Assembly (NCBI GenBank): GCA_014860455.1
Contig: JACZJQ010000277.1
Location: 1 to 45,678, forward strand
DNA length: 45,678 nucleotides
DNA from: Bryobacteraceae bacterium
Lineage (GTDB): Bacteria > Acidobacteriota > Terriglobia > Bryobacterales > Bryobacteraceae
Reading direction: 5' to 3'
In this document: in pieces, positions 13,936-39,832 of the stretch
Numbering within the stretch: the first letter of the stretch is position 1
Layout: the number at the start of each line of letters is the position of its first letter
The notes under the pieces: generated by a model
The model's input: the letters and a program-made list of their open reading frames with translations, nothing else
What the model was told of the DNA's origin: nothing
Databases searched by the model: none
Position numbers and translations under genes: made by a program

Positions 13936-13951
13936 CAAGCGGGCGGGGCGG

Positions 13952-13972: not shown

Positions 13973-14062
13973 ATTTCGGAGTGCCGGCGGGAGGCCGATG
14001 GAATGGGGCCGAGATGGGGGCTGCGAGTTTCACCCAGTGGGTGCGTAATTGCTACAGGGTAG

Positions 14063-23746: not shown

Positions 23747-26700
23747 TTAGAAAGTGAACCGGGCGCCCAATTGAATGATGCGGGCGTTCTGGCCGACCGC
23801 CGTGTACTGGCCGAAGTCCTGCGCAGTGATGGTGCGGCTGGCCTCCTGGAACGACGTGTTGTTGAAGATGTTGTAGAACTCCGCGCGAATCTGGATCCGG
23901 GTCTGTTCCGTCAGGTTGAAGTTCTTATAAACGTTCCAGTCAAAGTTGCGTTCGCCGTTCAGGCGAAGCACGTTGCGGCCCATCCCGCCGAAGTTGCCAA
24001 GCAGGGGCTGAGACAACCCGAGGCTTTGCGCATACGCGGAGATGTTCTGCACCTGTCCGGTGGTCAATCCGGACGGAGCACCGGCCGAACCCGCCGGCCG
24101 CGGATCGAAGTTGACCGGGCCGGTAACGTTTGGCCTCACCTGCCCACCGCCGCCGATCACGGTGAGCGGAGTAAGGCCGCGGCGTGCGCCCGCATCGAGG
24201 GTTGTCGGGAAGCCTGTCCGGATCGAAGTGATCCCGGTGAATCCCCAGTTGCCTGCGAGGTTCCGCATGGCCCAACTGCTCGAGCCCTGGAACCACTGCG
24301 GCTCCCACACGTGGCTGACCACCAGACGATGCCGCAGGTCAAACTGCGCGGCAGCGCGGTTGTCGCGATTGTTCCGCGGATCCTGCTGCGCGGAGGAGTC
24401 ATTGATCAGGACGCCGAGTACGTCGGAGCCGTCGTCAATGGTCTTCGACCATGTCCAGTTCATATTCATCATCAGGCTGTTGCTGAAGCGTTTCTGCGCT
24501 TCGAACTGCATGGCGTGATAGTTGGAGTCGGCCGAGTTGTCCACATAGACGATTGCGTTGTAGCGGCCGTCAATGCGGTTGCTGCGGCGGGCGACGTTGC
24601 CGTTTTGGAGTCCGAAGACGGACTGCCATTCGGCCAGCCGTGCGGTTTCATCGGCCACGCTCGCCGCCGGCGTGGGCGGGGCGGCGATGAAGTTGAGGTC
24701 GCGCGACCTCAACAGGAAGTTGCCCTTCGTGCCAACGTAGCTGGCCTTCCAGACAACGCCGAACTGCTCGCGCTGGATGCCGAAGTTCCACTGGTGAACC
24801 AGCGGATTGTTCAGTCCCTGGTCGATGGCGGGCGAAATGCCGCCGAAGTTCAGGGCGGTTTGGGAGAACGAGCCGGCGGTGGCTGCCGTCGAGGTCTGAA
24901 TGGTCGAGGTGCCGGCCAGGATCTGCTGCAGGCTGTTGTTGCCGGCAAAGTTTGCCTGACCGCTCAATACGCCAGCCACGATGAAGGGCGGCAGGAACCG
25001 CTGATTCGTGATCGGGTTCAGGAAGATGAAGTCGTAGGAAATCCCATAGCCGCCGCGGATCACCGTGCGGCCATCCTGACCCGGGTTCCAGGCGAAGCCG
25101 AACCGCGGCGCCCAGTTGGTGTTGCTCTGGAACGACGGCTGACCGGTTTCGAGTGCGCCAAGCGGACCCGGACCCGCACCGGCGAAGTTGCCCGTGTTGT
25201 TCAGGTTGAGGTTCGAGATCGTGCCCTTGAGTTCATAAGGGCCGCCGGCATACTCCATGCGGATTCCGAGGTTCAGCGTCAGTTTCCGTGAGACCTTCCA
25301 ATCGTCCTGCGCGAAGGCGAAGAAGTTCTTGACGCGGTTCTCGCGGACAGAGTTGCCGAATCGCTGTTGGAACACCGCCGGCACGCCGCGCTGGAAGTCG
25401 GCGAAGTTGGCGAACTGCAGCAGCGGACGGAACAGCGCGTCGAACACGCTGTCGGCCTGCAGGAAGTAGTACTCGCCGCCGAACTTCAGGTAGTGGCTGC
25501 CCTTCACCATGCTCAGGTTGTTGTTGAACTGATAGGTCTTCTGCTCGCGACCCTGCGGCAGGCCTTCCCACACGCCAAAGCTATTCACCGAGGCGTCTGC
25601 GAACGTGATGCGAGGTCCAAGCGGATAGGGAGTGTCGATCGGGAAGCCCGCATCGCTCTGGCCGAAGCCGAACCGGAACTCGTTCACCACGCTGTTGCCG
25701 AACAGCCGGGTGTGCGCCGCGGTGGACTGGCGTGGCTTGCCCAGGCTGTTGGCGCCGAATCCCGGCAGGTTCGAGCCGATGAAGGTCAAGCTGTCGGCGG
25801 CCGTCACGTTATCGACCTCGCTGTAGCGGAACCACAAGCTATCCCGACTCGTCAGATTGGCGTCAAACCGGAAAGCATACTGCCAGAAGTCTGTACGGTT
25901 TGCGGCCGACGTTCCGATCTGGCCCGTTGGCGAGGTCGGCACGGCGTACTGATCAAACAGGGCACGTGCGCTCGGATCAGTGATGGCGGCGGCCTGTTCC
26001 GGCGTCGGAACCCGGGCGATGCGCGTCGCGCCCGCGCCACGCTGCTTCAGGCCCTGGTAATCCGAGTACCAGAAGGCCTTGTTGCGTAGGTCAAGGAGCT
26101 TCGGAATCACCACCGGCCCGCCCAGCGACCAGCCATACTCGTTGCGCCTCAGGATGTTCGTCCTGCCGGTTCTATCAAAGAATGGCCGCGCGTTGAGTTT
26201 GTCGTTGCGGAAATACTCAAACAGCTCACCGTGGAGTTCGTTTGTGCCGTTCTTCGTCAGGTAGAGCACCTGCGAGCTGGAATTTCGGCCATACTCGGCG
26301 CTGAAGTTGTTGGTGATGACCTTCACTTCCTTGATCGAGCTGAAGTTCAGCGGACCCAGCGTACCGCCCGTGCCGGTCACCGACACGTCGGTCGCCGTAA
26401 TGCCGTCCACGGTAATGTTGTTGCCGCGGCCTCGGCCTCCATTGGAGTTGAAACTGCCTGAGCCGAGGAACGGATTGTTCGACGAAACCGGCGCCACCCC
26501 CGGCGCGGTCAGAGCGAACAGATTCGGATTGCGCCCCACAGGCAACTCCTGGATGGTCTCGCCCACCACGGATGTCTGAATCTGTGCGTTCTCGGTATCG
26601 AGTTGCTGTACTGCGTCGGTTACCGTGACGGTCTCCGAGATCGAGCCAACTTCAAGCACGAATCGGACGCTCGTCACTTCGCCTGTCTTCACCTCGCCCT

Positions 26701-26968
26701 GAGCCGAGGAGACCCGGAAGCCCGGAGCTTCCGCTCGCACTTCATAGCGGCCAATACGGAGCAGCGCGAAGTTGAACCCTCCGTCGCTGCTGACCGTCGT
26801 CGTGCGCGATTCGCCGGTCTCGAGGTTGATCAGGGTGATCTTCGAAGCCGTAACGGCGCCTCCGGAACTATCCGACACAGTGCCTCGCAGATCGCCCGTG
26901 ATCTGTCCGAAGAGCACCCCGGACGCCAGAAACAACGTAAACAAGAGTAAATGCAATGTGCGTTGCAT
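23747..26968 (-). CDS. Oar-like giant TonB-dependent receptor
   Basis: The start is ATG 26966-26968 with an AAGGGG ribosome site 5-6 bases upstream; the frame extends further but without a signal peptide. The 1073-residue protein has a signal peptide (MQRTLHLLLFTLFLASGVLF), a carboxypeptidase-regulatory-like domain (GDLRGTVSDSSGGAVTASKI onward, about 24-105), a plug (ELPVGRNPNLFALTAPGV; GRGRGNNITVDGI) and a large barrel ending in LGARFTF. Such proteins are multiplied in Acidobacteria and are thought to import polymers or other large substrates. No SusD-like partner is adjacent. It is divergent from a second receptor of the same type. Confidence 0.92.
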   Translation of the reverse strand: MQRTLHLLLFTLFLASGVLFGQITGDLRGTVSDSSGGAVTASKITLINLETGESRTTTVSSDGGFNFALLRIGRYEVRAEAPGFRVSSAQGEVKTGEVTSVRFVLEVGSISETVTVTDAVQQLDTENAQIQTSVVGETIQELPVGRNPNLFALTAPGVAPVSSNNPFLGSGSFNSNGGRGRGNNITVDGITATDVSVTGTGGTLGPLNFSSIKEVKVITNNFSAEYGRNSSSQVLYLTKNGTNELHGELFEYFRNDKLNARPFFDRTGRTNILRRNEYGWSLGGPVVIPKLLDLRNKAFWYSDYQGLKQRGAGATRIARVPTPEQAAAITDPSARALFDQYAVPTSPTGQIGTSAANRTDFWQYAFRFDANLTSRDSLWFRYSEVDNVTAADSLTFIGSNLPGFGANSLGKPRQSTAAHTRLFGNSVVNEFRFGFGQSDAGFPIDTPYPLGPRITFADASVNSFGVWEGLPQGREQKTYQFNNNLSMVKGSHYLKFGGEYYFLQADSVFDALFRPLLQFANFADFQRGVPAVFQQRFGNSVRENRVKNFFAFAQDDWKVSRKLTLNLGIRMEYAGGPYELKGTISNLNLNNTGNFAGAGPGPLGALETGQPSFQSNTNWAPRFGFAWNPGQDGRTVIRGGYGISYDFIFLNPITNQRFLPPFIVAGVLSGQANFAGNNSLQQILAGTSTIQTSTAATAGSFSQTALNFGGISPAIDQGLNNPLVHQWNFGIQREQFGVVWKASYVGTKGNFLLRSRDLNFIAAPPTPAASVADETARLAEWQSVFGLQNGNVARRSNRIDGRYNAIVYVDNSADSNYHAMQFEAQKRFSNSLMMNMNWTWSKTIDDGSDVLGVLINDSSAQQDPRNNRDNRAAAQFDLRHRLVVSHVWEPQWFQGSSSWAMRNLAGNWGFTGITSIRTGFPTTLDAGARRGLTPLTVIGGGGQVRPNVTGPVNFDPRPAGSAGAPSGLTTGQVQNISAYAQSLGLSQPLLGNFGGMGRNVLRLNGERNFDWNVYKNFNLTEQTRIQIRAEFYNIFNNTSFQEASRTITAQDFGQYTAVGQNARIIQLGARFTF

Positions 26969-27809
26969 ACAGACCCCTTTCGTCTGGTCATTTGAGTAGT
27001 CCCGTTGAGCAGGCACGTGCAATCCGTCGCTACACAGGTCACGTGTTTTGGGTCGGGCGATGGGCGCTCGCGCGCCTGTACGGGATGAGTAAAGAACTGG
27101 TGTTGGCCCGCACGGATTCCGTCGAGCCGCTCTAACTAGCCTCAATTACACAGGTTGATGCACCTCAGAGCCGGATGGTTGCACCAGAGCACCATCTCTC
27201 TGCCTCCGAAGCGCATCGGCAACTCGGTCTATTATTGCGGAGGATGTTTGTGCTTTTTGTAACATTTCGTGCAGATTCAATAGGTTGGAGACCGTACGAC
27301 CCACAGTGAACGGCGTTCTTGCCCGCACGGTCATTGCAACAAACCTTCAACCTGGCGAGACTGCGGCGCCACCTTGCTCCACCCACCACTTCCGAAGAGA
27401 AGCCGGCGTATGCACTCGGTCAGAGACACAACCCCCTATACATCGAGATCTTTAGATAGATCAATCCTGCAATCCTGCGACCGAACTGGCGGCTGCGCCG
27501 GCCGACGCCAACTGACTCGCGGCAATGTCCTGGACAGCGCCGAATGAAACGCCCCGTGCCCGGAAACGCTAACGGGAGAGCATCTTGCGGGTGAGATACG
27601 AAAACGTGCGGATCCCAGCAGCAAACTGGGCTGCCGTTTCTGCCTTCCAACTCGCCTCCAGGCAGGTGGCATGCAGGAGTCGACGAATCCCTACCCCGGG
27701 GACGGGAATTGCTTGACGCAAGAGTCCAAGGCAGCTATCCTTTATCTCATTAGTTCGCAAGGGCGTTACACAAGTTAATTCCTGTGTGCGTCGAAGGGAG
27801 TATTTCCTC
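26969..27809. promoter_or_regulatory. Divergent intergenic region between two giant TonB receptors, with three YTACACARGTY motifs
   Basis: No convincing gene is found in this 841-base stretch. A similar 11-base motif occurs three times in the same orientation: CTACACAGGTC (27030-27040), TTACACAGGTT (27146-27156) and TTACACAAGTT (27766-27776). Two CACGTG palindromes lie at 27014-27019 and 27040-27045. The motif copies sit near both gene starts and could bind a shared regulator; this is inference. Confidence 0.4.
27713..27741 (+). promoter_or_regulatory. Candidate promoter of the plus-strand TonB receptor
   Basis: TTGACG (27713-27718), a 17-base spacer and TATCCT (27736-27741) give a good sigma-70 match. 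The predicted start is about 60 bases before the receptor ATG, and one copy of the TTACACAAGTT motif lies just downstream. Confidence 0.55.
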
Positions 27810-30800
27810 ATGAGCAGTGTGATCCGATCCATCGCGATCAGTGTCTTTCTTTTGGCCCTCGGGTTCGCCCAGGTCTCCACTTCCCGGTTGGACGGCATTG
27901 TCGAGGACCAGTCCGGAGCAATCGTCCCGGATGCAAAGGTCGTTGCCGTCAACGACAGAACCCAGGCCAGAGCCGAGATGACCACCGGGCCGGAGGGCCT
28001 GTTCGTCTTCCCGTCGCTTCAGCCCGGCATGTATACAGTCTCAGTGGAGGCCGCTGGTTTCCGGAAGGCGGTCATCAGCAATGTCGAGTTGAACGTCTCG
28101 GTTTCGACAACCCAGCGCGTCAAGCTCGAGGTCGGCCAAGTGACTGAGAGCGTTGTGGTTGAAGCCGAAGCCGTCCGTGTTCAGACCGCTGATGCCCAGT
28201 TGGGCCGGTCGGTGACGATGCGCGACATCGACACGCTGCCCCAATTGAGCCGCAGCCCGATCACGCTGGCCGTGTTTCAGCCTGGCGTCGTCTCCAACGC
28301 CGGCGACACCTCGTTCGCCTACGTGAATGGCACCCGCCAGGGCAGCAACAATACCACGCTGGACGGCATCGACGTCAACGACGCCGTCGCCCCCCGCCTC
28401 GGTCTGGCCATGAATGCCAACAATACTGACTCGGTCGGCGAGTTCCGCATGGTCACCAATGGCGGAAAAGCCGAATACGGCCGCAACGCCGGCGGCCAGG
28501 TGGAACTGATCACCCGCTCAGGCACCAACCAGTTCCACGGCAACCTGTTCGACTACCACCGCAACACGGTATTGAACGCCAACAACTTCTTCAACAACGC
28601 ATCGGGCGTCAAACGTCCCAAGTACATCCAGAACCTCTTTGGCGGCTCCATCGGCGGCCCTGTGATCAAGAACAAGACCTTCTTCTTCTTTAACTACCAG
28701 GCCAGCCGCGTCGCCCAGGAAGTGGTCCGGAACCGCACGGTCCCGACAGTCGAGATGAAGCAGGGCCTCTACCGCTGGCGCTCGCCCGGTTCCACGGCCA
28801 TCTCCACCTTCAACATCGCCCAGAACGATCCTCGCGGGAAAGGCCAGGACGCCGAAGTTGCCAAGATCTGGGCACTCTACCCGAATCCGAACAACTTCGA
28901 CGTCGGCGACGGCCTGAACTACGCCGGCTTCCGCTTCAACAACCCCGCCGGCAGCGAGAACGACCAGTACACCCTCAAGGCCGATCACAACCTGAAAGAT
29001 GGCCACCACCTGTTCTTCCGCTATAGCTGGTTCGAGACCTTTTCGATCGACTCTCTCAACAGCGCTGACGCCACATTCCCCGGCCAACCCCAGGGCAACC
29101 AGGGCGGCATCCGCTCAGGCTTCTCCACCGGGTCTAACTGGGTCATCACCCCCTCCCTGGTGAATGAACTCCGCGTCGGCACGCAGAGCGCCAACAGCGC
29201 ATTCAACCGCCCCGGCCGCCTGCCCGGCCCGATGGTCATCACCAACTATTTCACTGACCCGCTGAATCCCGCGTTCCCCCAGGCACGCAATTCACCGGTC
29301 TGGGAAGTCACCGACAACCTGACCAAGCTCAAGGGAGCCCATACCATTAAAGTCGGCGGCCAGTTCCGCTACACCAAGCAGTATGGCGTGAACGAGGCCG
29401 GCATCTACCCCAACGTCACCACCGGCATCACGTTCGGAAACAATGTCCCGACCTCCATCGGACCGACCGGCGCGTCCGTCATCTCCTCGGCCAACCGCCA
29501 GGTCTTCGAAGGTCTCTATAACGATTACCTCGGCCGCATCAACCAGGTCACCCAGACCTTCTATAGCGACCTGGAGACGTGGCAGGCGCCCGGCACTCCT
29601 CGCGTCCGCAACTTCAAGGTTCGCGAACAGGCCTTCTTTATCCAGGACGACTGGAAGCTCCGCCGCAACCTCACCATGAACCTCGGCCTGCGCTGGGAAT
29701 TCAACGGCATCCCGACCGAACAGGACGGACTGCAAGGGACGCTCGACCGCGCCGATCTCATGAGCCCGGCCGTCGGCTTCACCGACCTCAAGATCCAGAA
29801 GTCCAACCAGTGGTACAAGAAGGACTGGAACAACTTCGCCCCCCGTTTTGGCTTCGCCTGGGACATCAACGGCGACGGCAAAATGGCCGTTCGCGGCGGT
29901 TACGGCATCTACTTCGACCGCCTGATCGGCGCCACCATCAGCCTCGCCGACGGCAACACCCCCGGTTTTGCCCAGGCCAACCAGGCCTTCCCCAACCAGG
30001 CCGGCGGCGATGTCCGAATCGCCGATGGCATCCCGATGCCGGTGCAGCCCGCGGCCCCGGTGATGCAGTTGCCGCTCACCCGAGCCACCAGCATCGTCAT
30101 CTTCAATCCGGACCTGGCCACCCCCTACGTCCAGCAGTTCAACCTCAATTTCCAGCGCGAGATCGCGAAAAACACCGTGGTTGAGATCGGCTACGTTGGC
30201 AGCCGCGGCGTGAAGCTGTTCTTCAACACCGACCTGAACCGACAGCGGATCGAAGCCGACCTGCTGCCCGCGTTCAAGGAGCTGCGCGCTTATCAACTGA
30301 ACACCGCCACTCCGGTGTCGCCCAGCAACACCCTGGTCCGGTTGTTCGGCTCCGCCGCGGCCGCCGTCTCCGGCATCGGCGCCACCAACCTCGCCAACGG
30401 CGCCGTCGGCACCGTGGCCACCAACATCGACCGCACCTCGTCGATCTATAATCGCTACGCCTCGGCCGGCCTGTCCAACCACTACCTGCGCAACTATCCG
30501 CAGTTCAACCAGGTGATCCAGGGCGGCAACCACGGCCGGTCGTACTACAATTCGGCCCAGATCAGCGTCCGCCGTAACATGGCCTCGCTGCAGATCTTCG
30601 CCAACTACACCTTCAGCAAGAGCATCGACATCGGCTCGGCCGAAGGTAACGGCTACTCCGCGCCCGTCGATCCCCTCAACATGATCCTCGGCCGCGCCCG
30701 CAGCGATTGGAACCGTCCCCATGCCTTCAACGCTTCCATCATCTATGTCCTGCCAATCGGCAGGGGCAAGGCTCTCGGCGGCGACATGCCTGCATGGCTC

Positions 30801-31268
30801 GATTCCGCCATCGGCGGTTGGGAACTCGGCGGCCTCACGCAATGGCAGAGCGGCAGTAACTTCACAACCGCCTCAGGCCGAGTCACCACCTGGGGCGGTA
30901 TCACCACTTGGGCCAACTACTCCGGCGACCGCAACATCGGCGGCGTCCAGCGCCGTGACGGCGGGATCTGGTTCTATGATCCCAATACCGTCAACAACTT
31001 CTCGTTCCCGGGCGCCGGCGAACTCGGCAACTCCGGCCGTAACGCCTTCCGTGGTCCGCGGTACTTCAACGCCGACGTTTCCATCGTGAAGCGCTTCCGG
31101 ATCTACGAAGACCACCGCATCACCTTCCGCGCCGAAGGCTACAACATCTTCAACCACACCAACTTCGGCAACCCGACCGTCGGCATCACCACTCCCGCCA
31201 CCTTCGGCAGGATCAGCAGCGCGATCGGCCCTCGAATCTTCCAGTTGGCTCTCCGGTACGATTTCTAA
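27810..31268 (+). CDS. Oar-like giant TonB-dependent receptor
   Basis: ATG 27810 follows a GAAGGGAG ribosome site; a GTG at 27786 is less likely. The 1152-residue protein has a signal peptide (SIAISVFLLALGFAQ), a regulatory-like beta domain (LDGIVEDQSGAIVPDAKVVA, about 20-100), a plug (MRDIDTLPQLSRSPITLAVF; NNTTLDGIDVNDAVAP) and a long barrel ending FQLALRYDF. It shares overall plan with the divergent receptor but differs clearly in sequence, so the pair is not a recent duplication. The substrate is unknown. A strong intrinsic terminator follows. Confidence 0.93.
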   Translation: MSSVIRSIAISVFLLALGFAQVSTSRLDGIVEDQSGAIVPDAKVVAVNDRTQARAEMTTGPEGLFVFPSLQPGMYTVSVEAAGFRKAVISNVELNVSVSTTQRVKLEVGQVTESVVVEAEAVRVQTADAQLGRSVTMRDIDTLPQLSRSPITLAVFQPGVVSNAGDTSFAYVNGTRQGSNNTTLDGIDVNDAVAPRLGLAMNANNTDSVGEFRMVTNGGKAEYGRNAGGQVELITRSGTNQFHGNLFDYHRNTVLNANNFFNNASGVKRPKYIQNLFGGSIGGPVIKNKTFFFFNYQASRVAQEVVRNRTVPTVEMKQGLYRWRSPGSTAISTFNIAQNDPRGKGQDAEVAKIWALYPNPNNFDVGDGLNYAGFRFNNPAGSENDQYTLKADHNLKDGHHLFFRYSWFETFSIDSLNSADATFPGQPQGNQGGIRSGFSTGSNWVITPSLVNELRVGTQSANSAFNRPGRLPGPMVITNYFTDPLNPAFPQARNSPVWEVTDNLTKLKGAHTIKVGGQFRYTKQYGVNEAGIYPNVTTGITFGNNVPTSIGPTGASVISSANRQVFEGLYNDYLGRINQVTQTFYSDLETWQAPGTPRVRNFKVREQAFFIQDDWKLRRNLTMNLGLRWEFNGIPTEQDGLQGTLDRADLMSPAVGFTDLKIQKSNQWYKKDWNNFAPRFGFAWDINGDGKMAVRGGYGIYFDRLIGATISLADGNTPGFAQANQAFPNQAGGDVRIADGIPMPVQPAAPVMQLPLTRATSIVIFNPDLATPYVQQFNLNFQREIAKNTVVEIGYVGSRGVKLFFNTDLNRQRIEADLLPAFKELRAYQLNTATPVSPSNTLVRLFGSAAAAVSGIGATNLANGAVGTVATNIDRTSSIYNRYASAGLSNHYLRNYPQFNQVIQGGNHGRSYYNSAQISVRRNMASLQIFANYTFSKSIDIGSAEGNGYSAPVDPLNMILGRARSDWNRPHAFNASIIYVLPIGRGKALGGDMPAWLDSAIGGWELGGLTQWQSGSNFTTASGRVTTWGGITTWANYSGDRNIGGVQRRDGGIWFYDPNTVNNFSFPGAGELGNSGRNAFRGPRYFNADVSIVKRFRIYEDHRITFRAEGYNIFNHTNFGNPTVGITTPATFGRISSAIGPRIFQLALRYDF

Positions 31269-31295
31269 CCGGTCCGGCCTTCTTTTCGATACCTC

Positions 31296-31336
31296 AAACG
31301 GGCGGCTCTTCCCCAGGGCCGCCCGTTTTCTTTGCT
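31296..31336 (+). terminator. Intrinsic terminator after the plus-strand TonB receptor
   Basis: AAACGGGCGGC (31296-31306) and GCCGCCCGTTT (31318-31328) form a perfect 11-base stem with an 11-base loop. A T-rich tail (TTTTCTTTG from 31326) follows, 27 bases after the stop codon. Confidence 0.9.
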
Positions 31337-31468
31337 CCTCATCGCTGCCCCAGCGCCCCAACCGCCCCGATTGCGTATATTCCCCCAGAGCCCCGCTACA
31401 TGGCTCACGTGATTTCAATAACTTAGATGCTTGGATACTGTGGCGTCAAGATTGCATACACCAGTCAT

Positions 31469-32617
31469 ATGAATCCTGCGGGCGCCACCTCCGGCTACCG
31501 TCCTCGCCTGGTCTTCTGGGAATTGACAACAGGATGCAATCTCAGGTGCATACACTGTCGCGCCTCGGCCACCGAGTTGATGAGTCCCGATGATCTTTCC
31601 ACCGCTGAATGCCTGGCGATTGTCGATCAGATTGCGTTATATGCCCCACTCATCCTGGTGCTCAGCGGCGGCGAACCGCTCTGGCGCCGGGATGTCTTCG
31701 ACATCGCCAGTCACGCCGTATCCAAGGGACTCCGCGTCGCCTTGGCCACCAACGGCACCCTCATCGATGAAGCAATGGCGATGCGCATCAAGGATGCCGG
31801 CATCGTCCGCGTCTCCATCAGCCTCGACGGCGCCGATAAACAGACCCACGACGCCTTCCGCGGCCACGACGGCGCCTTCGATTCCGCCATCCGAGGCATC
31901 CGCCTCCTCCAGGACCTCGGCATCTCCACCCAGATCAATACCACCGTCTCCAAGCACAACGCCCACCAACTCCAAGAGACCCTGGAACTGGCCAAGTCTC
32001 TGAAAGTGGACGCCTTCCACCTTTTCCTCCTCGTCCCCGTCGGCTGTGGCCTCACCATCGCTGAAGACCAGTCCATCGGCGGCGCCGAGGCCGAAGAGAT
32101 TCTCAACTGGTTCTACGACCGCAGCATCGATTCCGGTATGGAACTGAAGGCCACCTGCGCGCCGCATTACTACCGCATCGTCCGCCAGCGCCGCGCCGAC
32201 GACCGCCGCGCCGGCCGCGAAGTTGCCGGGATGATGCCCCATCCGCGCCACTCGCACCACCCCGGCGCCCAGGATCCGACCGCGCTTAACCAGATGACCC
32301 GCGGCTGCCTGGCCGGTTCCGGCGTCTGTTTCATCTCCCACAGGGGCGTCGTCCAGGCCTGCGGCTATCTGCCCGTCGAGGCCGGCGACCTCCGTAAGCA
32401 ACCGTTCTCAGAGGTCTGGGAAAGCTCGCCGCTGTTCACCGAACTGCGAGACCTCTCGCTGCTCGAGGGCAAGTGCGGTTGTTGCGAGTTCGTGCAGGTT
32501 TGCATGGGCTGCCGCGCCCGCGCCTACGGCATTACCGGTAACTATATGGAAGAAGAGCCGTTCTGCATCTACGAACCGCGGAACGCTGCCGCTCGGCCTG
32601 GGGAGGTCCAGCCATGA
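31469..32617 (+). CDS. AhbD-like radical SAM/SPASM enzyme
   Basis: From MNPAGATSGYRP (ATG 31469) the protein is 382 residues; an in-frame ATG at 31427 is possible, and neither has a clear ribosome site. The radical SAM cluster motif is C23-x3-C27-x2-C30 (TTGCNLRCIHC) and the SAM-binding motif is SGGEP (66-70). The C-terminal SPASM-type cysteine region includes TRGCLAGSGVCFIS, VQACGYLPV, GKCGCCEFVQVCMGCRARAY and EEPFCIYEP. TCAPHYYRI near 229-237 and the SPASM region strongly recall AhbD/NirJ enzymes that oxidise porphyrin propionates in alternative heme synthesis. An unusual His-rich patch (HPRHSHHP) lies near 258-265. It overlaps the ferredoxin gene by 4 bases. The substrate here is unproven. 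Confidence 0.85.
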   Translation: MNPAGATSGYRPRLVFWELTTGCNLRCIHCRASATELMSPDDLSTAECLAIVDQIALYAPLILVLSGGEPLWRRDVFDIASHAVSKGLRVALATNGTLIDEAMAMRIKDAGIVRVSISLDGADKQTHDAFRGHDGAFDSAIRGIRLLQDLGISTQINTTVSKHNAHQLQETLELAKSLKVDAFHLFLLVPVGCGLTIAEDQSIGGAEAEEILNWFYDRSIDSGMELKATCAPHYYRIVRQRRADDRRAGREVAGMMPHPRHSHHPGAQDPTALNQMTRGCLAGSGVCFISHRGVVQACGYLPVEAGDLRKQPFSEVWESSPLFTELRDLSLLEGKCGCCEFVQVCMGCRARAYGITGNYMEEEPFCIYEPRNAAARPGEVQP

Positions 32618-32901
32618 AGGCCTGCCGCTGTAGCGACGGCTCCGTCTACGTCAAGCGCGACCGCCACGTCTTTGTCGTCTGTGGCGGTGAGCACTGCCGC
32701 TGCGCAGGGTCGAAGGAACTTCTCGACTACCTCAAGCAGGCGCCCGTTTCAGGCGATGTGGATGTCCGGATCGCCGAATCGAGGGCTTGTATAGGCCATT
32801 GCGCCGCCGCCCCGGCCATGGTTGAGGACGGCCAGATCCTGCGTTGGGTCAGCCCGCGCCGGCTCAAGATCGAGCTTCTGCGCTTGGGTATCACTGGATG
32901 A
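32614..32901 (+). CDS. Thioredoxin-like [2Fe-2S] ferredoxin
   Basis: The 95-residue protein carries the four-cysteine pattern of NuoE-type and Aquifex-type ferredoxins: VCGGEHCRC (C23 and C28) and ACIGHCAAAP (C59 and C63). Three further cysteines (C4, C6, C30) are also present. Such proteins hold one [2Fe-2S] cluster in a thioredoxin fold. Because its ATG overlaps the stop of the radical SAM gene and its stop overlaps the start of the peptidase gene (ATGA at both joints), it is probably made in step with both. A role as electron carrier to the radical SAM enzyme is a reasonable inference. Confidence 0.82.
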   Translation: MKACRCSDGSVYVKRDRHVFVVCGGEHCRCAGSKELLDYLKQAPVSGDVDVRIAESRACIGHCAAAPAMVEDGQILRWVSPRRLKIELLRLGITG

Positions 32902-33362
32902 CGTTGCTGTTCGCAATCGGCAACTCTCAGCGCGGCGATGATGGCGTCGCCTCCGAAGTCTGCGCAATGGTCGGCAAGGGCGACTGGAAGATCATTGAAA
33001 CCATGGAACTGATGCCCGAGATGGCAGACCATGTTGCCGGCGCTGAACGGTTGGTCTTCATCGACGCTGATTACCGCGGCGGTGAACCGTCCATCTCCCC
33101 GCTTTCGCCGGTCGCCTGCCATCCCGGCCCGATGACGCACTCCATGCGGCCTTGCGACCTTGTCGCCGTCGCCCGCCGGCTTTATGGTTTCAAGGGTCCG
33201 GCCTGGCAGCTTCGCGTTCCCGGAACCGACTTCGGCCTGGGGAGTCCGCTGTCCGGCACCGCGCGCACCAACGCGCGTCTGGCGGCCGGGTTACTCAGCG
33301 GCCTTCTCTTGCGTGACAAGTCCGTGGAGCCCTCTTGCCAGGGTAACGACGGAGCCGCCTAG
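32898..33362 (+). CDS. Hydrogenase-maturation-type endopeptidase (M52 family) homologue
   Basis: ATG 32898 gives a 154-residue protein. The family start (LLFAIGNSQRGDDGVASEV), the second acidic site (LVFIDADYRGGE, D56) and the His site (GPMTHSMRP, H81) match the nickel-binding residues of HybD/HycI-type peptidases, where D15, D56 and H81 correspond to the ligands. Known members clip the C-terminus of the [NiFe]-hydrogenase large subunit after nickel insertion. No hydrogenase subunit or Hyp gene is in the window, so its target is unknown. It is the third gene of a coupled trio. Confidence 0.85.
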   Translation: MTLLFAIGNSQRGDDGVASEVCAMVGKGDWKIIETMELMPEMADHVAGAERLVFIDADYRGGEPSISPLSPVACHPGPMTHSMRPCDLVAVARRLYGFKGPAWQLRVPGTDFGLGSPLSGTARTNARLAAGLLSGLLLRDKSVEPSCQGNDGAA

Positions 33363-33368
33363 CCTCAG

Positions 33369-33788
33369 CTACAGTTTCGCCGCGATCTCCAGTTTCATCG
33401 GGCTGCCTTGGTCGCGTAGAGGCGGTTTCTTGCGGTCGATCCTTGAGTCGGGAACCTCGGCCAGGTGCGTTGCCGCCTCGTGCGGATCGGGATAGAGGTC
33501 CACCGTCGCCGGATGATCGCTTTCAAGGGCCTGCAGATCGGCTTCTGTCAGGTAGCCGAGATAGACCGTTTCGCCGCCCCGAAGCTTGTGCACTTCAAAA
33601 CTGCGGAAGACCGGCTTGTCGAACATGGCCACTTCAGAGGTTGCGGCCGAGGTCGTGAAACCGTAGACCCCCTCCGGCAGATTGGCCAGCGGACAGCCAG
33701 TCTCCTCGGCATTGAGTGCGCGCAAGTTCCACTTGGCGCGGACCTGTTCTCTCTCTGGACTCAGTGCGGGATGCTGCTCAATCGGCAT
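33369..33788 (-). CDS. Hypothetical protein, 139 residues
   Basis: I do not recognise the family. The protein is soluble, with no signal peptide or membrane helix. The segment EETGCPLANLPEGVYGF near 28-44 and a mixed alpha/beta pattern (FEVHKLRGGETVYLGYLTEA) suggest a folded domain. The C-terminus (RIDRKKPPLRDQGSPMKLEI) is basic. It lies convergent to the M52-type gene with only 6 bases between the stops, and the start has only a weak GAAG ribosome site. Gene reality is supported by length and position, not by known homology. Confidence 0.6.
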   Translation of the reverse strand: MPIEQHPALSPEREQVRAKWNLRALNAEETGCPLANLPEGVYGFTTSAATSEVAMFDKPVFRSFEVHKLRGGETVYLGYLTEADLQALESDHPATVDLYPDPHEAATHLAEVPDSRIDRKKPPLRDQGSPMKLEIAAKL

Positions 33789-33849
33789 ACATCTTCAATT
33801 TAGCAGCCCACGCTGGTCCGTTCACGCCGCCGCACCCCACGGCACCGCC

Positions 33850-34707
33850 TCAATGGCTGGTGGCCTTCTTCGTCTCCCCCGGCTTCGCGCCGTGCTCGGA
33901 CTGGTGAGCGTCTGCGTCTTTGCCCGCAGCCTCGCCCGCAGCCTTGCCCGTAGCATCCTTGCCGACCTTCGACGCGCCTTCGGAGTACTGAACTATCACC
34001 GAAACGCGCCGGTTGGCCGGGTCCAGGGCGTCAGCCTTGTTCCTCAGCACCACATCGGCGAACCCTCTCACCTGTGCCACCCTGCCGGGTTGGATGCCCG
34101 CCTCCTCCAGCAGCCGGCGGGCGGTGTTGGCTCTGTCGGCCGAAAGCTCCCAGTTCGTGTAGTGGCCGGAAGTCGCATACGGCTTGGCGTCGGTGTGTCC
34201 TTCCACCACCAGTTTGTTCGGTAGCGACTTCAACTGCGCGCCGAGCAACGTCATCATCTCCCGTCCGCTATCCTTCAGCGATGAACTCCCGCTCTCAAAC
34301 CACAGTCCGCCTTCGTTCTCCAGCAACTCGATCCGCAGCCCCTCTTGCGTGATCGTCATCTGGACGTTTTTTTCCAACTTTTTCAGTTCCGGCAACTCTC
34401 TAACCGCTTGCTCCAGTTTTTCCAGCAGCTTGTCCAGATCTTCCTTCGCCACCGACAGCGAGTCCCCTGAACCCGACATCGTCGAACCCATCAGGTTGCC
34501 TTGGCCGGAGGGATCGGTGAAGTACCCGCCGACGGCTTTTTTCACCTCTTCATCCGAGGCCAGAAGCCACAAGACAATGAACAGCGCCATCATTGCCGTG
34601 ACGAAGTCGGCGTAAGCCACCTTCCAGGCGCCGCCGTGATGGCCGCCATGGCCCTTCTTCTTTCTGATTACGATGATCGGCGGATGGTTCGGCGTTCCAG
34701 TGGCCAT
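33850..34707 (-). CDS. motB: Flagellar motor stator protein MotB
   Basis: The 285-residue protein begins with a basic His/Gly-rich stretch, then the MotB helix AWKVAYADFVTAMMALFIVL with the proton-carrying Asp (D34). A plug/linker follows, and then an OmpA-like peptidoglycan-binding domain (about 135-245, LWFESGSSSLKDSG, VVEGHTDAKPYAT, NRRVSVIVQY). The tail after 250 is Ala/Lys/Asp-rich. MotB anchors the stator to the cell wall and with MotA couples proton flow to rotation. It starts 12 bases after motA with an AAGGAG ribosome site. No other flagellar gene is in the window. Confidence 0.95.
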   Translation of the reverse strand: MATGTPNHPPIIVIRKKKGHGGHHGGAWKVAYADFVTAMMALFIVLWLLASDEEVKKAVGGYFTDPSGQGNLMGSTMSGSGDSLSVAKEDLDKLLEKLEQAVRELPELKKLEKNVQMTITQEGLRIELLENEGGLWFESGSSSLKDSGREMMTLLGAQLKSLPNKLVVEGHTDAKPYATSGHYTNWELSADRANTARRLLEEAGIQPGRVAQVRGFADVVLRNKADALDPANRRVSVIVQYSEGASKVGKDATGKAAGEAAGKDADAHQSEHGAKPGETKKATSH

Positions 34708-34719
34708 GACTGTCTCTCC

Positions 34720-35601
34720 TTACGCTGCCTTGGCCTGGGCCTGCGGAGCCGCAGCGCCCTTGATCGACGCCTCGGTTTCCTTGAACGTCGGCCGGACATG
34801 CATCGGGATTCCGCGCCGTGCAAATTCCACCGAAAGCGATGGCGCCAGCCCTTTCAGAAATCCAAGCACGCCCAACCTGAGGAACTGCATATATTCGGCC
34901 CGGTCCTGCACCTGCTTCGTCATCAGCGACGCCACCGGCCCCAGTAGCCCGTAACACATCAGAATGCCCAGGAAGGTTCCAACCAATGCTGCCGCCACCT
35001 TCTGTCCGATCTCCTCCGGCGGCCCGCCCAGCGAACCCATCGTGATCACCACGCCCAGCACAGCCGCTACAATGCCCAGCCCCGGCAGCGCATCTGCAAC
35101 CGTCGACAGAGCCGATACCGGCACCGTCTCTTCATGGTGTTGAACCTCCATGTCCAACTCCATCAGTTGGTCGAGTTCAAACGGCCCGACGCCGCCAGAG
35201 ATCGACATCCGCACCGTGTCGCAGAAGAATTCCAGTGCATGATGGTCTGCCAGGAACTTCGGATAGTTCTGGAACAGCGGACTCTTGTCAGGTTCATCGA
35301 TGTCGGCCTCCAGCTTCGCCGCGCCGTTCTTGCGCGCATAGACGAAGATCTCGTTCAGCATCTTCAGCTGTTCGAGGTAGAACGCCTTGGAGTACTTGCT
35401 GCCCTTCAGCGAGCCCAACGTGCCGGAGATGACCGCCTTCAGAACATGCAGGGGATTCGCAATGATCAACGATCCCAACGCCGCCCCGCCGATGATAATG
35501 AACTCCGAAGGCTGATACAACACCAGCAGGTTGCCGTGGTGCATCACGTAACCGCCGGCCACTGAACCAAATACGACGATGATCCCGATGATTACGAACA
35601 T
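34720..35601 (-). CDS. motA: Flagellar motor stator protein MotA
   Basis: The 293-residue protein has the MotA pattern: two N-terminal membrane helices (MFVIIGIIVVFGSVAGGYVM and SEFIIIGGAALGSLIIAN), a large charged cytoplasmic loop (LEQLKMLNEIFVYARKNG), and two later helices (LPGLGIVAAVLGVVITMGSL and VAAALVGTFLGILMCYGLLG). Conserved prolines near the later helices are present. It forms the stator channel with MotB, directly downstream. The 162 bases between its start and the divergent M20 peptidase gene should hold promoters for both, but none is clear. Confidence 0.95.
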   Translation of the reverse strand: MFVIIGIIVVFGSVAGGYVMHHGNLLVLYQPSEFIIIGGAALGSLIIANPLHVLKAVISGTLGSLKGSKYSKAFYLEQLKMLNEIFVYARKNGAAKLEADIDEPDKSPLFQNYPKFLADHHALEFFCDTVRMSISGGVGPFELDQLMELDMEVQHHEETVPVSALSTVADALPGLGIVAAVLGVVITMGSLGGPPEEIGQKVAAALVGTFLGILMCYGLLGPVASLMTKQVQDRAEYMQFLRLGVLGFLKGLAPSLSVEFARRGIPMHVRPTFKETEASIKGAAAPQAQAKAA

Positions 35602-35763
35602 TCAGGTTTACTCAAAGGCTTGTGTGCCCAAGCCTCCTCCAGTTTCCGTATCGGCCGCCCGCGCCATTCCTTGAGCCACTTCGGCCTTTTCGGCCGCGAT
35701 GCAGCGGCGGCGGCCCGATAGGGCTGGCGCTGCGTTTGGTCCAGGTTGGTAAGATACCTCTAA

Positions 35764-37014
35764 GTGCCTGTTCCTTCAAGCAAAACAGCCGACTGCGCGC
35801 TGCCGGGCGGCATCGGGGTGCTCGACGGCCTTGTCGCCTCGGCGCCGGTCCGGGACGCCTTCCGCTTCTTTGACCACAACGCACGCTGGATCGACGAGCG
35901 ACACCTCACCATTTGCCGGATCCCGGCCCCCACCTTCCATGAGCGCACCCGGGCTGAATGGTTTCTGGAGCAGTTCTCCTCGTTCGGCCTCTCGGCCCGG
36001 CTCGACCGCGCCGGCAACGTGCTGGCCCACCGCTCCGACGCTCCGCGGTCGGCGCCCCTGGTTGCCGTTACCGCCCACCTCGACACCGTCCTGGCCCCTT
36101 CGAACCCGGCCCAGATTGAGTTCGCCCGCGGCAAGTTTCACGGCCCCGGCGTCTCGGACAACGGCGCCGGACTGGCCGCACTGCTCGCCCTGGCGCGCGC
36201 ATATGCCGAACTCCCACTTTCAGCAGGCTCCGCGACGCCGCTGTTCGTTGCCAACGTCGGCGAGGAAGGCGAGGGCAACCTCTCCGGCATGAGGTTCCTT
36301 TGCCGCCCGTCGCCTCTGCTGAACCGCATCCGGGCGTTCGTCGTCCTCGATGGCCCGTCGGTGGAACATATCACCTCCGAAGCTCTCGCCTGCCGGCGTT
36401 TCGAAATCTCCATGACCGGCCCCGGCGGCCACTCCTGGGCCGACCATGGTACCGCCAATCCGGTACATGCCCTTTCCCGGTTGATTACTACATTTATAGA
36501 CATGAGGTCAGCCGTAAGGACTGCCGAACGATGCTCCTACAACTTCGGCGTCATCGACGGCGGCTCGACGGTGAATGCCATTCCCTCATCGGCGCGGGCG
36601 AAGGCCGATCTGCGCTCAGCCGATCCGCTCACCTTGGACGGCCTTGTGGACGACCTTTCGGCAGCATCCGAGTCGGCCGAATTAGCCGAGAATCAGATTG
36701 CGACGGCTGGACGTGTAACCGCCTCCATCCGCGAAACCGGTTCGCGGCCCGGTGGAAAGCTGAGAGACTCGGCTAGTATTCTCAGTTACATACGAGCCGT
36801 GGATCAGTATCTCGGCATCCGCTCCTGGCCCGATTGCGCCTCCACTGACGCCAATGTTCCGCTGAGCCTCGGCCTGGATGCTATCTCCATCGGAGCCGGC
36901 GGCGCAGGCGGCGGCGCGCACACGCCCGGCGAGTGGTATTCCTGCGAGGGCCGCGCCCTCGGCCTGCGTCGAATCACGCTTCTGCTTTGCCTGCTGCTCG
37001 CGGAACAGGACTGA
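35764..37014 (+). CDS. M20-family metallopeptidase
   Basis: The metal-site pattern of M20 peptidases is visible: H105 and D107 in VTAHLDTV, bridging D132 in GPGVSDNGAG, E167/E168 in NVGEEGEGN, and a final His in GAHTPGEWY near residue 396. A dimerisation insert (TGPGGHSWADHGTANPVHAL) sits in the middle. PepT-like aminopeptidases and related hydrolases look like this; the substrate is not clear. GTG 35764 gives 416 residues without a good ribosome site; GTG 35818 is an alternative. A transporter gene follows after 2 bases, so the pair may handle the same compound. Confidence 0.85.
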   Translation: MPVPSSKTADCALPGGIGVLDGLVASAPVRDAFRFFDHNARWIDERHLTICRIPAPTFHERTRAEWFLEQFSSFGLSARLDRAGNVLAHRSDAPRSAPLVAVTAHLDTVLAPSNPAQIEFARGKFHGPGVSDNGAGLAALLALARAYAELPLSAGSATPLFVANVGEEGEGNLSGMRFLCRPSPLLNRIRAFVVLDGPSVEHITSEALACRRFEISMTGPGGHSWADHGTANPVHALSRLITTFIDMRSAVRTAERCSYNFGVIDGGSTVNAIPSSARAKADLRSADPLTLDGLVDDLSAASESAELAENQIATAGRVTASIRETGSRPGGKLRDSASILSYIRAVDQYLGIRSWPDCASTDANVPLSLGLDAISIGAGGAGGGAHTPGEWYSCEGRALGLRRITLLLCLLLAEQD

Positions 37015-37016
37015 GG

Positions 37017-37898
37017 ATGAGCCTCCGTCTGCGGGCCGAACTGGTCCTTATTTTGATCGCCCTCATCTGGGGTGCGATGTTTGTAGTAGTAAAGTCCGCC
37101 CTCGCCGACGCCTCAACGCTCACCTTCCTCGCCATTCGCTTCTCGTTGGCGACTCTGTTCCTGTTTCTGGTCTACCGCACCCGGCTCACATCGGCTATTC
37201 CGCGCGGTAGGGCCTGGCTCGGCGGCGCCGTGTGCGGGATGTTTCTCTTCGTCGGCTTTGCGTTACAAACCGCCGGCCTGCGGTCCACTTCAGCCTCCAA
37301 TTCCGCTTTCCTCACTGGCCTCTATGTTGTTCTTGTGCCTGTGTTTGCGTCGATCTACGAGCGCAAGCGGGTGGGCAGGGTGGAGTGGAGCGCCTGCGCC
37401 CTGGCCTTCGCCGGCACTGCCCTGATGACGGGCCTGGGCTTGGCTCCGCTAAACCACGGCGACCTGCTCACTATCGGCTGCGCCGCCGCCTTCTCCGCCC
37501 ACATCGTCGCCGTCGCCCACTGGTCCGGACGCATCAACTACGAGTGGTTGACCATGCTCCAGGTGGCAGGTGTCGCCCTCCTCTCGCTCTCCAGCTTCTG
37601 GTGGGCCGAGACGCCTGCAATCAACTGGACCCCACGCCTCATCGCCGCCCTGCTTGTTACCTCCGCGCTTGCCACCGCCCTGTGCTTTGCCCTCTACACT
37701 TGGGCGCAGCGGCACACGACGGCCACTCGCGCCGCCCTTCTTTTCGCTCTCGAACCCGTCTTTGCCGGCCTTGTCGCCTGGGCCTTCGCTGGCGAACGCT
37801 GGACGATTTTCTCCCTCGCCGGCGCCGGCCTCATCCTCGCATCCATCGTCATGGCCGAACTCAAACCTCCGCCCATAAGTGAAAAGCCCGGACCCTGA
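37017..37898 (+). CDS. EamA/DMT-family transporter
   Basis: ATG 37017 lies two bases after the peptidase stop and gives 293 residues. About ten hydrophobic helices form two EamA repeats, with the usual starts (ALIWGAMFVVVKSAL in the first, and HTTATRAALLFALEPVFAGL near the end of the second). The family moves small metabolites such as amino acids out of or into the cell; the substrate cannot be given. The 3' end overlaps the terminator shared with rpoD. Confidence 0.9.
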   Translation: MSLRLRAELVLILIALIWGAMFVVVKSALADASTLTFLAIRFSLATLFLFLVYRTRLTSAIPRGRAWLGGAVCGMFLFVGFALQTAGLRSTSASNSAFLTGLYVVLVPVFASIYERKRVGRVEWSACALAFAGTALMTGLGLAPLNHGDLLTIGCAAAFSAHIVAVAHWSGRINYEWLTMLQVAGVALLSLSSFWWAETPAINWTPRLIAALLVTSALATALCFALYTWAQRHTTATRAALLFALEPVFAGLVAWAFAGERWTIFSLAGAGLILASIVMAELKPPPISEKPGP

Positions 37899-37911
37899 CG
37901 GGCCCGGACTT
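37884..37911. terminator. Hairpin terminator between the EamA transporter and rpoD
   Basis: AAGCCCGGACCC (37884-37895) and GGGCCCGGACTT (37900-37911) pair at 10 of 12 bases with a 4-base loop. On the minus strand TTTTC closes the structure, so it most likely ends rpoD transcripts. It overlaps the last codons of the opposing transporter gene. Confidence 0.7.
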
Positions 37912-37932
37912 CTATCCAACCTATTGATTCTA

Positions 37933-39465
37933 TTACCGTGCGGCGAGCAGAGCGCGCAAATGCCTGGCCCGTTCGGGCGACCGCAACTGGCGCAATGCCT
38001 TGGCCTCGATCTGCCGGATACGCTCACGCGTCACGTCAAACTGCTGGCCGATCTCTTCGAGCGTATGCTCACGGTCACAGCCAATGCCGAAACGAAGCCG
38101 GATCACCTTTTCTTCCTTCGGAGACAGCGTCTTGAGGATCGCCGCCGTCTCATCGCGGACGTTCGAGTCGATAACCGTCTCCACGGGTGAACTCACCCAG
38201 CGGTCCTCGATCAGGTCGCCCAAAGCCGACTCGCCATCGCGCCCGACAGGCGTCTCAAGCGAAACCGGGTCGCGGCTGATCGTTTTCAGCTTCTGGACTT
38301 TCTCAACCGGGATGTCCATCCGCCGGCTGATTTCCTCATTTGTAGGAGCTCGGCCAAGCTCCTTCTCCAGTTCGCGGGTAGCGCGCAGGAACTTGTTCAT
38401 CGACTCGTTCATGTGCACCGGGATGCGGATCGTCCGCGACTGGTCCGCAATGGCCCGCGTGATCGCCTGACGGATCCACCACGTGGCGTAGGTCGAGAAC
38501 TTGTAGCCGCGGCGGTACTCGAACTTGTCGGCCGCGCGCATCAGGCCGATGTTTCCTTCCTGAATCAAATCAAGAAGATGCAAGCCGCGATTGACATACT
38601 TTTTGGCGACGGAAACCACCAGCCGGAGGTTGGCCTCCACCAGGTCCTTTTTCGCCCGCTCAGCTTCGAGTTCGCCTTGGCGGATGACGGCCAACGTATG
38701 GCGCAAGTCGCCCAACGGCGCTCCGGCCTGCTGCTCTCGGCGCTTGATTTCGCGTTTCAGTTCGCGGATCTTGGCCTGGTTGTCGGACTTGCGGATTTCG
38801 AGGCGGCGAATCTCCTGGTCGAGATGGGCCATCTCCTCGGCCGCCTTCTCGATGGCAAGTGAGAACTGCCTCCACTTTGGCAGCAACCATGGGACGCGGC
38901 GAATATGGAGGGCGGTTTCGACCAGCGAGCGGTAGAACTTCTGCTGGGCCTTCCTCTTGAGCTTCCTGTTAGACGCCGGGACGGCGCCCAGTTTCTCCTC
39001 CGCCTGGTGCTGGCGCTTGAGGTGGCCAGCAAAGTCGGCGAACAGTCTTCGAATGTCGGCCTGGCGCTTCAGATGGATGGTGGTGCCTTCCTCGATATCG
39101 CCGGTGTCCACCCAGGCGCCGAGGTCTGAGTCCTCCAGTTTCATCTGCTCGGCAACGTGGAGCACCTGCAAATGGACCAGCACCGAACGGCTGATGGCCT
39201 TTTGCATCTTCAACTTGCCACGTTCCATGCGGCGCGCCAGATCCACTTCGCCGTCGCGCGTCAACAGGGGTACGGCGCCCATTTCGCGTAGATAAACGCG
39301 AACCGGATCGTCGGTGTAGATCGACTCCTCGACGTGCTGGGCCGCATGAAAGTCCTCCTCCTGCACATCGCCAGGGTGGAAGAAGTTGGCGTCCTCGTCG
39401 AATGAGGTCGGCAACTGGAGGCTCTCATGCGAATCGGCTAAAAAGTGATCGTCGTAATTGTCCAC
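37933..39465 (-). CDS. rpoD: Primary sigma-70 factor
   Basis: The 510-residue protein starts at GTG 39463-39465 after a GAGGTGA ribosome site. Region 1.2 ([12 protein letters not shown], about 52-80) is followed by a non-conserved region of about 190 residues. Next come region 2 ([17 protein letters not shown], then [18 protein letters not shown] near 322-339), region 3, and region 4 with [20 protein letters not shown] (470-489). The first 50 residues are acidic and lack a recognisable region 1.1. The strength of region 2 marks it as the housekeeping factor rather than a stress sigma. Confidence 0.97.
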
Positions 39466-39827: not shown

Positions 39828-39832
39828 TCAGC
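39811..39832. terminator. Hairpin at the 3' end of nrdR
   Basis: GCTGATCC (39811-39818) and GGATCAGC (39825-39832) form a perfect 8-base stem with a 6-base loop that includes the nrdR stop codon. No strong T-tract follows on the minus strand, so termination would be weak or factor-assisted. Confidence 0.4.

Follow-up and report, generated by a model that had tools for sequence, protein, structure and literature searches.

The closest described relatives of the genes considered here belong to two pathways. AhbD is a radical S-adenosylmethionine (SAM) enzyme that makes heme b from coproheme. In the portions of PMC10452713 that deal with its motifs and clusters, the AhbD of Methanosarcina barkeri has a CX3CX2C motif and a SPASM pattern of CX20-33CX17CX36-37CX2CX5CX2CX17-35C (the methanogen and sulfate-reducer type), the potentials reported for AhbD clusters lie at -340 to -400 mV, and an external electron acceptor is proposed but not named. 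The bidirectional hoxEFUYH-hoxW operon encodes a [NiFe] hydrogenase; its HoxE belongs with NuoE to the thioredoxin-like [2Fe-2S] ferredoxins (PF01257), and HoxW is, like HycI and HybD, a protease of the M52 type, which finishes hydrogenase large subunits. Within the window, by which we mean the whole stretch of 45,678 nucleotides analyzed from a Bryobacteraceae bacterium (GCA_014860455.1, contig JACZJQ010000277.1), genes for an AhbD-like radical SAM/SPASM protein (rSAM), a [2Fe-2S] protein (Fd) and an M52 (HycI/HybD/HoxW-type) maturation peptidase (P0003) follow one another as a coupled trio. Comparison with relatives indicates that this trio almost certainly derives from a hox operon.

All three genes lie on the forward strand, and their extents were borne out, as were the ATGA overlaps at both joints and every motif residue named in the preliminary description. 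The rSAM gene occupies 31469-32617 (382 amino acids, aa; ATG at 31469, stop TGA at 32615-32617), with a possible alternative in-frame ATG at 31427. Fd (32614-32901, 95 aa, ATG at 32614, stop at 32899-32901) shares ATGA at 32614-32617 with the rSAM gene, and the peptidase gene (32898-33362, 154 aa, ATG at 32898, stop at 33360-33362) shares ATGA at 32898-32901 with Fd. A chance arrangement of reading frames is ruled out by the same gene order in three relatives (G299, G298 and G297; G, L and C numbers are our handles for genomes, loci and contigs) and by ratios of nonsynonymous to synonymous change (dN/dS) well below 1 in close pairs.

Comparison at the level of sequence establishes a complete operon as counterpart of the trio, a single clade of reduced loci and retention of the genes in it. 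We searched a set of 61 genomes of close relatives with Fd at an E value of 0.001. Fourteen matched, the weaker matches probably being other HoxE or NuoE proteins. Fd orthologues were found in G299 (92%), G298, G297, G304 and G313, and full-length HoxE in G314 and G330. The order rSAM-Fd-M52 is identical in G299, G298 and G297, with overlapping genes in the window and G299 and closely spaced ones in G298 and G297; G304 and G313 have the rSAM-Fd pair without an adjoining M52 gene, and no P0003-like gene was found elsewhere in these genomes. G330 carries a full operon on one strand (L092), in which rSAM (7840-8952) is followed by HoxE (8921-9430), HoxF (9427-11046), HoxU (11043-11759), HoxY (11747-12289), HoxH (12292-13713) and an M52 protease (13710-14144), each gene overlapping or almost touching its successor. 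The NCBIfam bidirectional hydrogenase models give 222.1 bits for this HoxE (cut-off 224) and 401.9 bits for HoxU (cut-off 333); the label 'group 3d' for the hox operon is deduced from its subunits. The trio resembles the bidirectional hoxEFUYH-hoxW operon in that Fd corresponds to the C-terminal domain of HoxE, the peptidase to the operon's protease and the gene order to the operon's two ends, but it lacks hoxF, hoxU, hoxY, hoxH and the N-terminal domain of HoxE, and an rSAM gene stands in front. In G330 the hoxE/hoxF and hoxH/protease junctions are both 4-base overlaps, and the Fd/M52 joint of the window, at the site of hoxF-U-Y-H in full operons, is likewise ATGA, so that loss of these four genes would have left a clean joint.

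The rSAM alignment, run against 84,980 species genomes, gave 261 confirmed loci, the best 80 of which were analyzed, the neighbors behind rSAM being assigned by tblastn. The full operon (E, F, U, Y, H and protease) is present in 5 of the 80, and the order in L229, L232, L234 and L244 is the same as in G330 (L228). The trio was found in three (L212, L218 and L221, which are G299, G297 and G298), and rSAM-Fd without an adjoining M52 gene in 12 (L213-L217, L219, L220 of G304, L222 of G313, L223-L225 and L240). With the window there are 16 reduced loci, four trios and 12 pairs. In the window and the 15 others alike hoxF, hoxU, hoxY, hoxH and the N-terminal half of hoxE are missing, and Fd lies behind rSAM on the same strand, overlapping it by up to about 31 bases or separated from it by up to about 65, some starts being uncertain. 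Conservation of the three genes as a unit held for the rSAM-Fd pair (16 of 16 reduced loci) and failed for the peptidase, which is not beside the pair in 12 of the 16; no M52 remnant was found within 2.5 kb behind these 12 pairs (no match under E 0.1). A search of the phylum with the peptidase matched 32 of 297 genomes at E 1e-5, its own included, and none of the 29 peptidase loci inspected outside its own genome had rSAM or Fd within 1.5 kb on each side (tblastn); it was the Fd search of close relatives that revealed the arrangement. One pair locus, L223, whose rSAM-Fd pair is of the Bryobacteraceae type (76% identity), comes from a record titled 'Arcobacter sp. isolate SulCav_AS07-7_66_22', which may reflect a mistaken title or a mixed bin.

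The rSAM tree had 43 rows, comprising the window, all 20 scanned loci with partners and 22 of the 60 without. The rSAM alignment (A1) omits the rSAMs of G301 and G314, which have one internal TGA each, and that of G334, which is cut. The 16 reduced loci form one clade (100/99), the sister of which is a full-operon locus (90/81), and the remaining full-operon and solo loci fall outside. With Acidobacteriaceae rSAMs as the root, the tree reads as one reduction followed by loss of M52 in some lines. Because the two trio groups lie apart within the reduced clade through weakly resolved forks, the number of M52 losses is unsure. For the [2Fe-2S] domain a tree was built from 36 rows and 86 columns; HoxE of L087, L090 and L092 was omitted, these loci being the same as L170, L171 and L228, respectively. 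In this tree the 16 Fd proteins form one clade (100/99) inside the HoxE proteins of rSAM-headed full operons (90/81, 84/82), and HoxE of a second hox operon, described below, forms a separate clade (100/100).

Selection was assessed by dN/dS (Nei-Gojobori) in two close pairs. Between the window genome (G000) and G299 the ratios were 0.069 for rSAM, 0.105 for Fd and 0.227 for M52, and between G298 and G297 they were 0.043, 0.160 and 0.185, respectively. More distant pairs, with dS mostly near or above 1, gave higher ratios, reaching 0.55 for Fd and 0.53 for M52. The close pairs show apparent purifying selection on all three genes.

The predicted Fd protein is an isolated C-terminal HoxE domain. 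It matches PF01257 at 29.5 bits (cut-off 24.8) over model positions 63-138 of 145 only; the N-terminal helical domain of HoxE (about 85 residues) and the adjoining HoxF are absent in 16 of 16 Fd loci. Fd ends in 'EL-RLG', which resembles the 'ELDRIGVK' end of full-operon HoxE. Cys 23, 28, 59 and 63 are invariant in 18 of 18 sequences of the Fd/HoxE alignment (A5, which omits Fd of L222 and L225 and HoxE of L232, all three being in the [2Fe-2S] tree), and an open frame with the four Cys is kept in all 16 reduced loci. The structure model (mean predicted local distance difference test score, pLDDT, 78; residues 1-13 below 50) matches FdsG, HydC and NuoE chains, with a template-modelling score of about 0.65 over Fd. 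The four Cys and the fold are those of the NuoE/HoxE ferredoxins, whereas Fd stands alone as a C-terminal domain and theirs is part of a diaphorase subunit. As to the proposal that Fd is the electron source of the rSAM, the two genes are paired in 16 of 16 reduced loci, and electron transfer between their products, the natural reading of this arrangement, is fairly likely.

In the rSAM protein the CX3CX2C motif (C23, C27, C30; 31535-31558) is invariant in the alignment, and all eight AhbD SPASM Cys are present in the C-terminal region at 32156-32566 (C230-X49-C280-X17-C298-X37-C336-X2-C339-X5-C345-X2-C348-X17-C366). Six of seven spacings fit the published pattern, and all 80 scanned orthologues keep the SPASM motif, the first spacer ranging from 36 to 103. 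The best NCBIfam match is TIGR04545 (AhbD) at 447.9 bits, followed by TIGR04053 (343.2, cut-off 395), NirJ2, NirJ and AhbC. A tree of 39 rows, with long branches, places the rSAM with AhbD-like proteins, including that of the acidobacterial genome G060, and apart from TIGR04053 (90/90). The G060 protein stands beside an AhbC-type gene, whose product fits the AhbC model best (600.7 bits, cut-off 650). The description of the rSAM as AhbD-like was sound by score and by tree grouping. Its likeness to AhbD heme synthase lies in CX3CX2C, the eight SPASM Cys, the best-scoring model and this grouping, and its differences in a score below the cut-off, a longer linker before SPASM, the absence of any AhbA/B match and a coupled ferredoxin gene. 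Chances that the chemistry of this predicted enzyme is that of heme are about even.

The His-rich patch noted earlier in the rSAM (HPRHSHHPG, codons 258-266, 32240-32266) is real; it sits in a linker of variable length before the SPASM domain and recurs, in varying form, in all reduced loci and also in many distant orthologues. The linker is 49 residues long in the window and 43-58, including three or more His, in each of the 15 reduced loci of the scan; in 5 of 5 full-operon rSAMs and 9 of 60 others it has 36 residues. The patch is absent from the five full-operon rSAMs. Among distant orthologues the linker is mostly 42-103 residues long, many having a GHPG-HP stretch. Since the patch recurs in all reduced loci, metal binding by the rSAM stays conceivable. 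Across L212-L291 the linker is rich in His, Gly and Pro, and its length tracks the gene neighborhood.

The absence of a hydrogenase or heme pathway holds only beside the trio, for the genome has [NiFe] large subunits, HypF, ferrochelatase and the coproheme decarboxylase ChdC elsewhere. Comparison with AhbA/B, called for in the preliminary description, gave no PF17805 match in any of the 61 genomes, the trio's own included, and 4 of 14 controls were positive. Ferrochelatase was found in 57 of the 61 and ChdC in 51, the window genome having both. G299 (98% complete) has ferrochelatase and the trio and no ChdC match, for which an assembly gap is possible. In Acidobacteriaceae loci L093-L098, annotated like the other orthologue loci by scanning one representative per protein cluster, the rSAM orthologues have multiheme cytochromes (NapC/NirT, cytochrome c7), CRP/FNR-type regulators and YwiC in their vicinity, not all of them at each locus. 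This neighborhood would be an anaerobic setting and suits an anaerobic heme supply. FeoB is near the orthologue in L102 (G269) and L104, and G269 also has a hydrogenase with NrfD near. Cytochrome b561-like proteins were also seen near the L093-L098 orthologues. In the part of PMC5746218 concerned, Haloferax volcanii uses the ChdC-type PitA for aerobic and AhbD for anaerobic growth, and a passage of PMC10965808 calls the oxygen-independent counterpart of ChdC in coproporphyrin-dependent Bacillaceae 'yet unknown'.

The peptidase matches TIGR00072 at 38 bits, below the cut-off of 47.45, and had no Pfam match at E 1; the HoxH-adjacent protease of G330 is also under the TIGR00072 cut-off, at 43.3 bits. 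D14, D15, D56 and H81 are invariant in 9 of 9 aligned sequences, and the Asp/Asp/His set we take to be the nickel ligands. In the structure model (mean pLDDT 86, the tail from 141 being low) the first nine PDB matches are HycI/HybD-type proteases. Fold and residues uphold the M52 assignment. With HycI, HybD and HoxW the protein shares these two features and, in full operons, a HoxH neighbor; it differs from them as an orphan without an adjoining large-subunit gene and in its low score.

In the window genome (5.29 Mb in 356 contigs, 95% complete) there are three or more [NiFe] large-subunit genes, on contigs C178, C230 and C85, and four M52 genes, one near the C230 hydrogenase, one near the C85 hydrogenase, one on C289 and that of the window. 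C178 carries a complete hoxEFUYH set, the second hox operon, with no M52 gene near. Its HoxF (L106:10913-14071, 1052 aa) joins a NuoF-type part to one like GltD/NfnB (Fer4_20, Pyr_redox_2), and the long HoxF also occurs in the second hox operons of relatives (a cluster of 14, some being overlapping loci or cut), pointing to a [NiFe] hydrogenase that is linked to NAD(P) and perhaps bifurcates electrons. The tail of the C178 HoxH after DPCLSCSTH is very like that of full-operon HoxH. That HoxH keeps its C-terminal extension only near a protease was considered and rejected; the Hox-type HoxH proteins inspected keep it with or without an adjacent M52 gene. Large subunits and M52 genes number 3 and 3 in G298, 2 and 2 in G299, and 1 and 1 in G297 (84% complete), counts from which large subunits below cut-off may be missing. 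In these three genomes every M52 gene found except that of the trio adjoins a large subunit, and every large subunit found except the C178-type HoxH has an adjoining M52 gene, which is why a role in trans is suggested. Action of the trio peptidase on the second HoxH is, on such counts, a proposition for and against which we would give equal weight. As a separate observation, C289 (L109:9593-12261) has an orphan M52 gene next to HypF with no large subunit near, and its counterpart in G299 (L192) follows a HoxY-HoxH-like hydrogenase; C289 looks like another hydrogenase removed from between its helpers.

We consider it rather likely that the trio arose by reduction of an rSAM-hoxE-hoxF-hoxU-hoxY-hoxH-hoxW operon and is still under selection, the Fd, heme and trans-protease roles being the conjectural parts. 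An ancestral rSAM-hox operon would have lost hoxF, hoxU, hoxY, hoxH and the N-terminal half of hoxE once, retaining rSAM and the [2Fe-2S] domain of HoxE and, in the window and three relatives, the protease. The orphan HoxE domain would then be a small ferredoxin that passes electrons one at a time to the rSAM for reductive SAM cleavage, takes up the electron left by each oxidative decarboxylation, or does both. The rSAM would turn coproheme into heme b in an oxygen-independent reaction and so complement, under anaerobic conditions, ChdC, which depends on O2/H2O2 and completes the coproporphyrin-dependent pathway. Where the trio is present, the peptidase might cleave, in trans, the C-terminal extension of the HoxH of the second operon (on C178 here), which has no protease of its own. 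That the excised HoxE domain came, through a one-time reduction of a hydrogenase operon, to serve as physiological donor or acceptor of a siroheme-independent AhbD-type enzyme, itself an oxygen-independent substitute for ChdC, is a more tentative suggestion, to which we would give somewhat less than even chances.

Several observations weigh against this account. The stem of the Fd clade is long (1.58), the tree has its 86 columns only and its bootstrap had not settled; the branches that nest Fd in HoxE reach 84/82 and 90/81 only, and the approximately unbiased test (p = 0.384) merely does not reject a clade of Fd and these HoxE proteins. In 60 of the 80 closest rSAM loci, some of which end at a contig edge, neither Fd nor a hox gene follows, so Fd is not universally needed by the rSAM. 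The rSAM score is below the TIGR04545 cut-off of 500, and for that reason the protein is not filed as AhbD; the full-operon rSAM of G330 scores 474.9, and since AhbD-like proteins of G060 (496.5), G120 (490.6) and G185 (499.9) also fall just short, the cut-off is strict for Acidobacteriota. The first SPASM spacer of 49 is above the 20-33 given in the motif section of PMC10452713. ChdC is missing in 5 of 15 rSAM genomes and 5 of 46 others (p = 0.10, not significant), or in 2 of 10 and 3 of 39 (p = 0.27) among genomes at least 90% complete and at most 5% contaminated; in three rSAM genomes (G304, G322 and G332; 84, 92 and 81% complete) neither ChdC nor ferrochelatase was matched. Replacement of ChdC by the rSAM is our inference mainly from G299, the direction of the counts being as expected and not significant. 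As regards the peptidase, five genomes (G304, G310, G313, G317 and G323) have the second HoxH without a P0003-like gene (E 1e-4), so that HoxH does not in general depend on P0003; no spare M52 accompanies the C178-type HoxH in G310 and G313, and G000 has the further unpaired M52 on C289.

The preliminary description had proposed a self-contained maturation unit with its own target. This was for the most part not borne out. The trio matches both ends of a hox operon found complete in five relatives, and in each of the four trio genomes a complete hoxEFUYH set is present at another place, which is the co-occurrence that the preliminary description itself named as refuting its proposal. A new system with one protein or tetrapyrrole as the common target of rSAM, ferredoxin and peptidase would agree with the gene overlaps in the window and G299, the close spacing in G298 and G297, the His-rich linker in all reduced loci and the presence of P0004, a convergent gene at 33369-33788 (minus strand, 139 aa), near rSAM in 10 of the 16 reduced loci (window, L212, L218-L223, L225 and L240) and in 0 of 65 other scanned loci. 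Linker and P0004 distribution raised our estimate slightly; with the peptidase missing beside 12 of 16 pairs, and with P0004 on the other strand, where it may just mark a shared chromosomal position, such a system is nonetheless very improbable. The same missing peptidase, which left no remnant behind the 12 pairs, and the faster divergence of Fd and M52 than of rSAM would suit decaying debris of a lost hydrogenase operon with no function left besides that of the rSAM. Yet Fd is open with four Cys in all 16 loci and the close-pair dN/dS values are 0.11 and 0.16 for Fd and 0.23 and 0.19 for M52, and we hold debris to be quite improbable. On this evidence the trio would be more than an ordinary fragment, namely a stable rSAM-ferredoxin pair carved from a hydrogenase operon.

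Two further readings concern what the rSAM does. It may not be a heme synthase and may instead modify a peptide or another tetrapyrrole, in the manner of NirJ2, TIGR04053 or mycofactocin proteins, with Fd as redox partner. The sub-threshold AhbD score, the matches to several related families and the lack of AhbA/B in all 61 genomes are in keeping with this, but AhbD is the best family by 104.7 bits over TIGR04053, all eight AhbD SPASM Cys are there, and orthologues lie near multiheme cytochromes and CRP/FNR-type regulators (L093-L098) and FeoB (L102, L104); on balance we find it unlikely, with some weight left to it. The rSAM may also have belonged ancestrally to hydrogenase assembly, rSAM, Fd and M52 still serving the second hydrogenase and not heme. 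Hox-type HoxH (E at most 1e-150) occurs in 6 of 6 Fd genomes against 14 of 31 other family members among the 61 genomes (Fisher p = 0.022, uncorrected for kinship), and the second hox operon starts about 7.5 kb from rSAM in G298 and about 5 kb in G313. Against this, rSAM orthologues occur without such a HoxH in G322, G326, G332, G334 and G352 (two of them less than 85% complete), HoxEFUYH-protease operons without rSAM in front exist (G314, G269 and G054), and a continuing role in hydrogenase assembly seems improbable.

If the preferred reading of a reduced hox operon is right, the genetic coupling of an rSAM to a ferredoxin in bacteria that mostly have ChdC makes both a redox partner of AhbD and an oxygen-independent counterpart of ChdC testable. 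One family then displays an electron-transfer module cut from a hydrogenase and kept beside another enzyme, and orphan maturation proteases call for caution before they are taken as a sign of new systems. In one open-access collection, viewed mostly at the level of listings, no published account of a hox-derived rSAM-Fd arrangement was found; in one such collection no paper was found on a Bryobacter group 3d hydrogenase or HoxE with a radical SAM operon, nor on an acidobacterial radical SAM protein with hydrogenase maturation protease and ferredoxin.

No gene flanking the trio belongs to hydrogen or heme metabolism, and Rfam had no match in window positions 26000-40000. Downstream lie P0004, which had no match in Pfam, NCBIfam or PDB sequences, then MotB, MotA, an M20-type peptidase and an EamA transporter. 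The distribution of P0004 fits one shared chromosomal place, a functional link being also possible. The upstream flank holds two OMP_b-brl_4 / CarboxypepD_reg-type outer-membrane proteins, encoded by two large divergent OMP_b-brl_4 genes with a carboxypeptidase-regulatory-like domain at 23747-31268.

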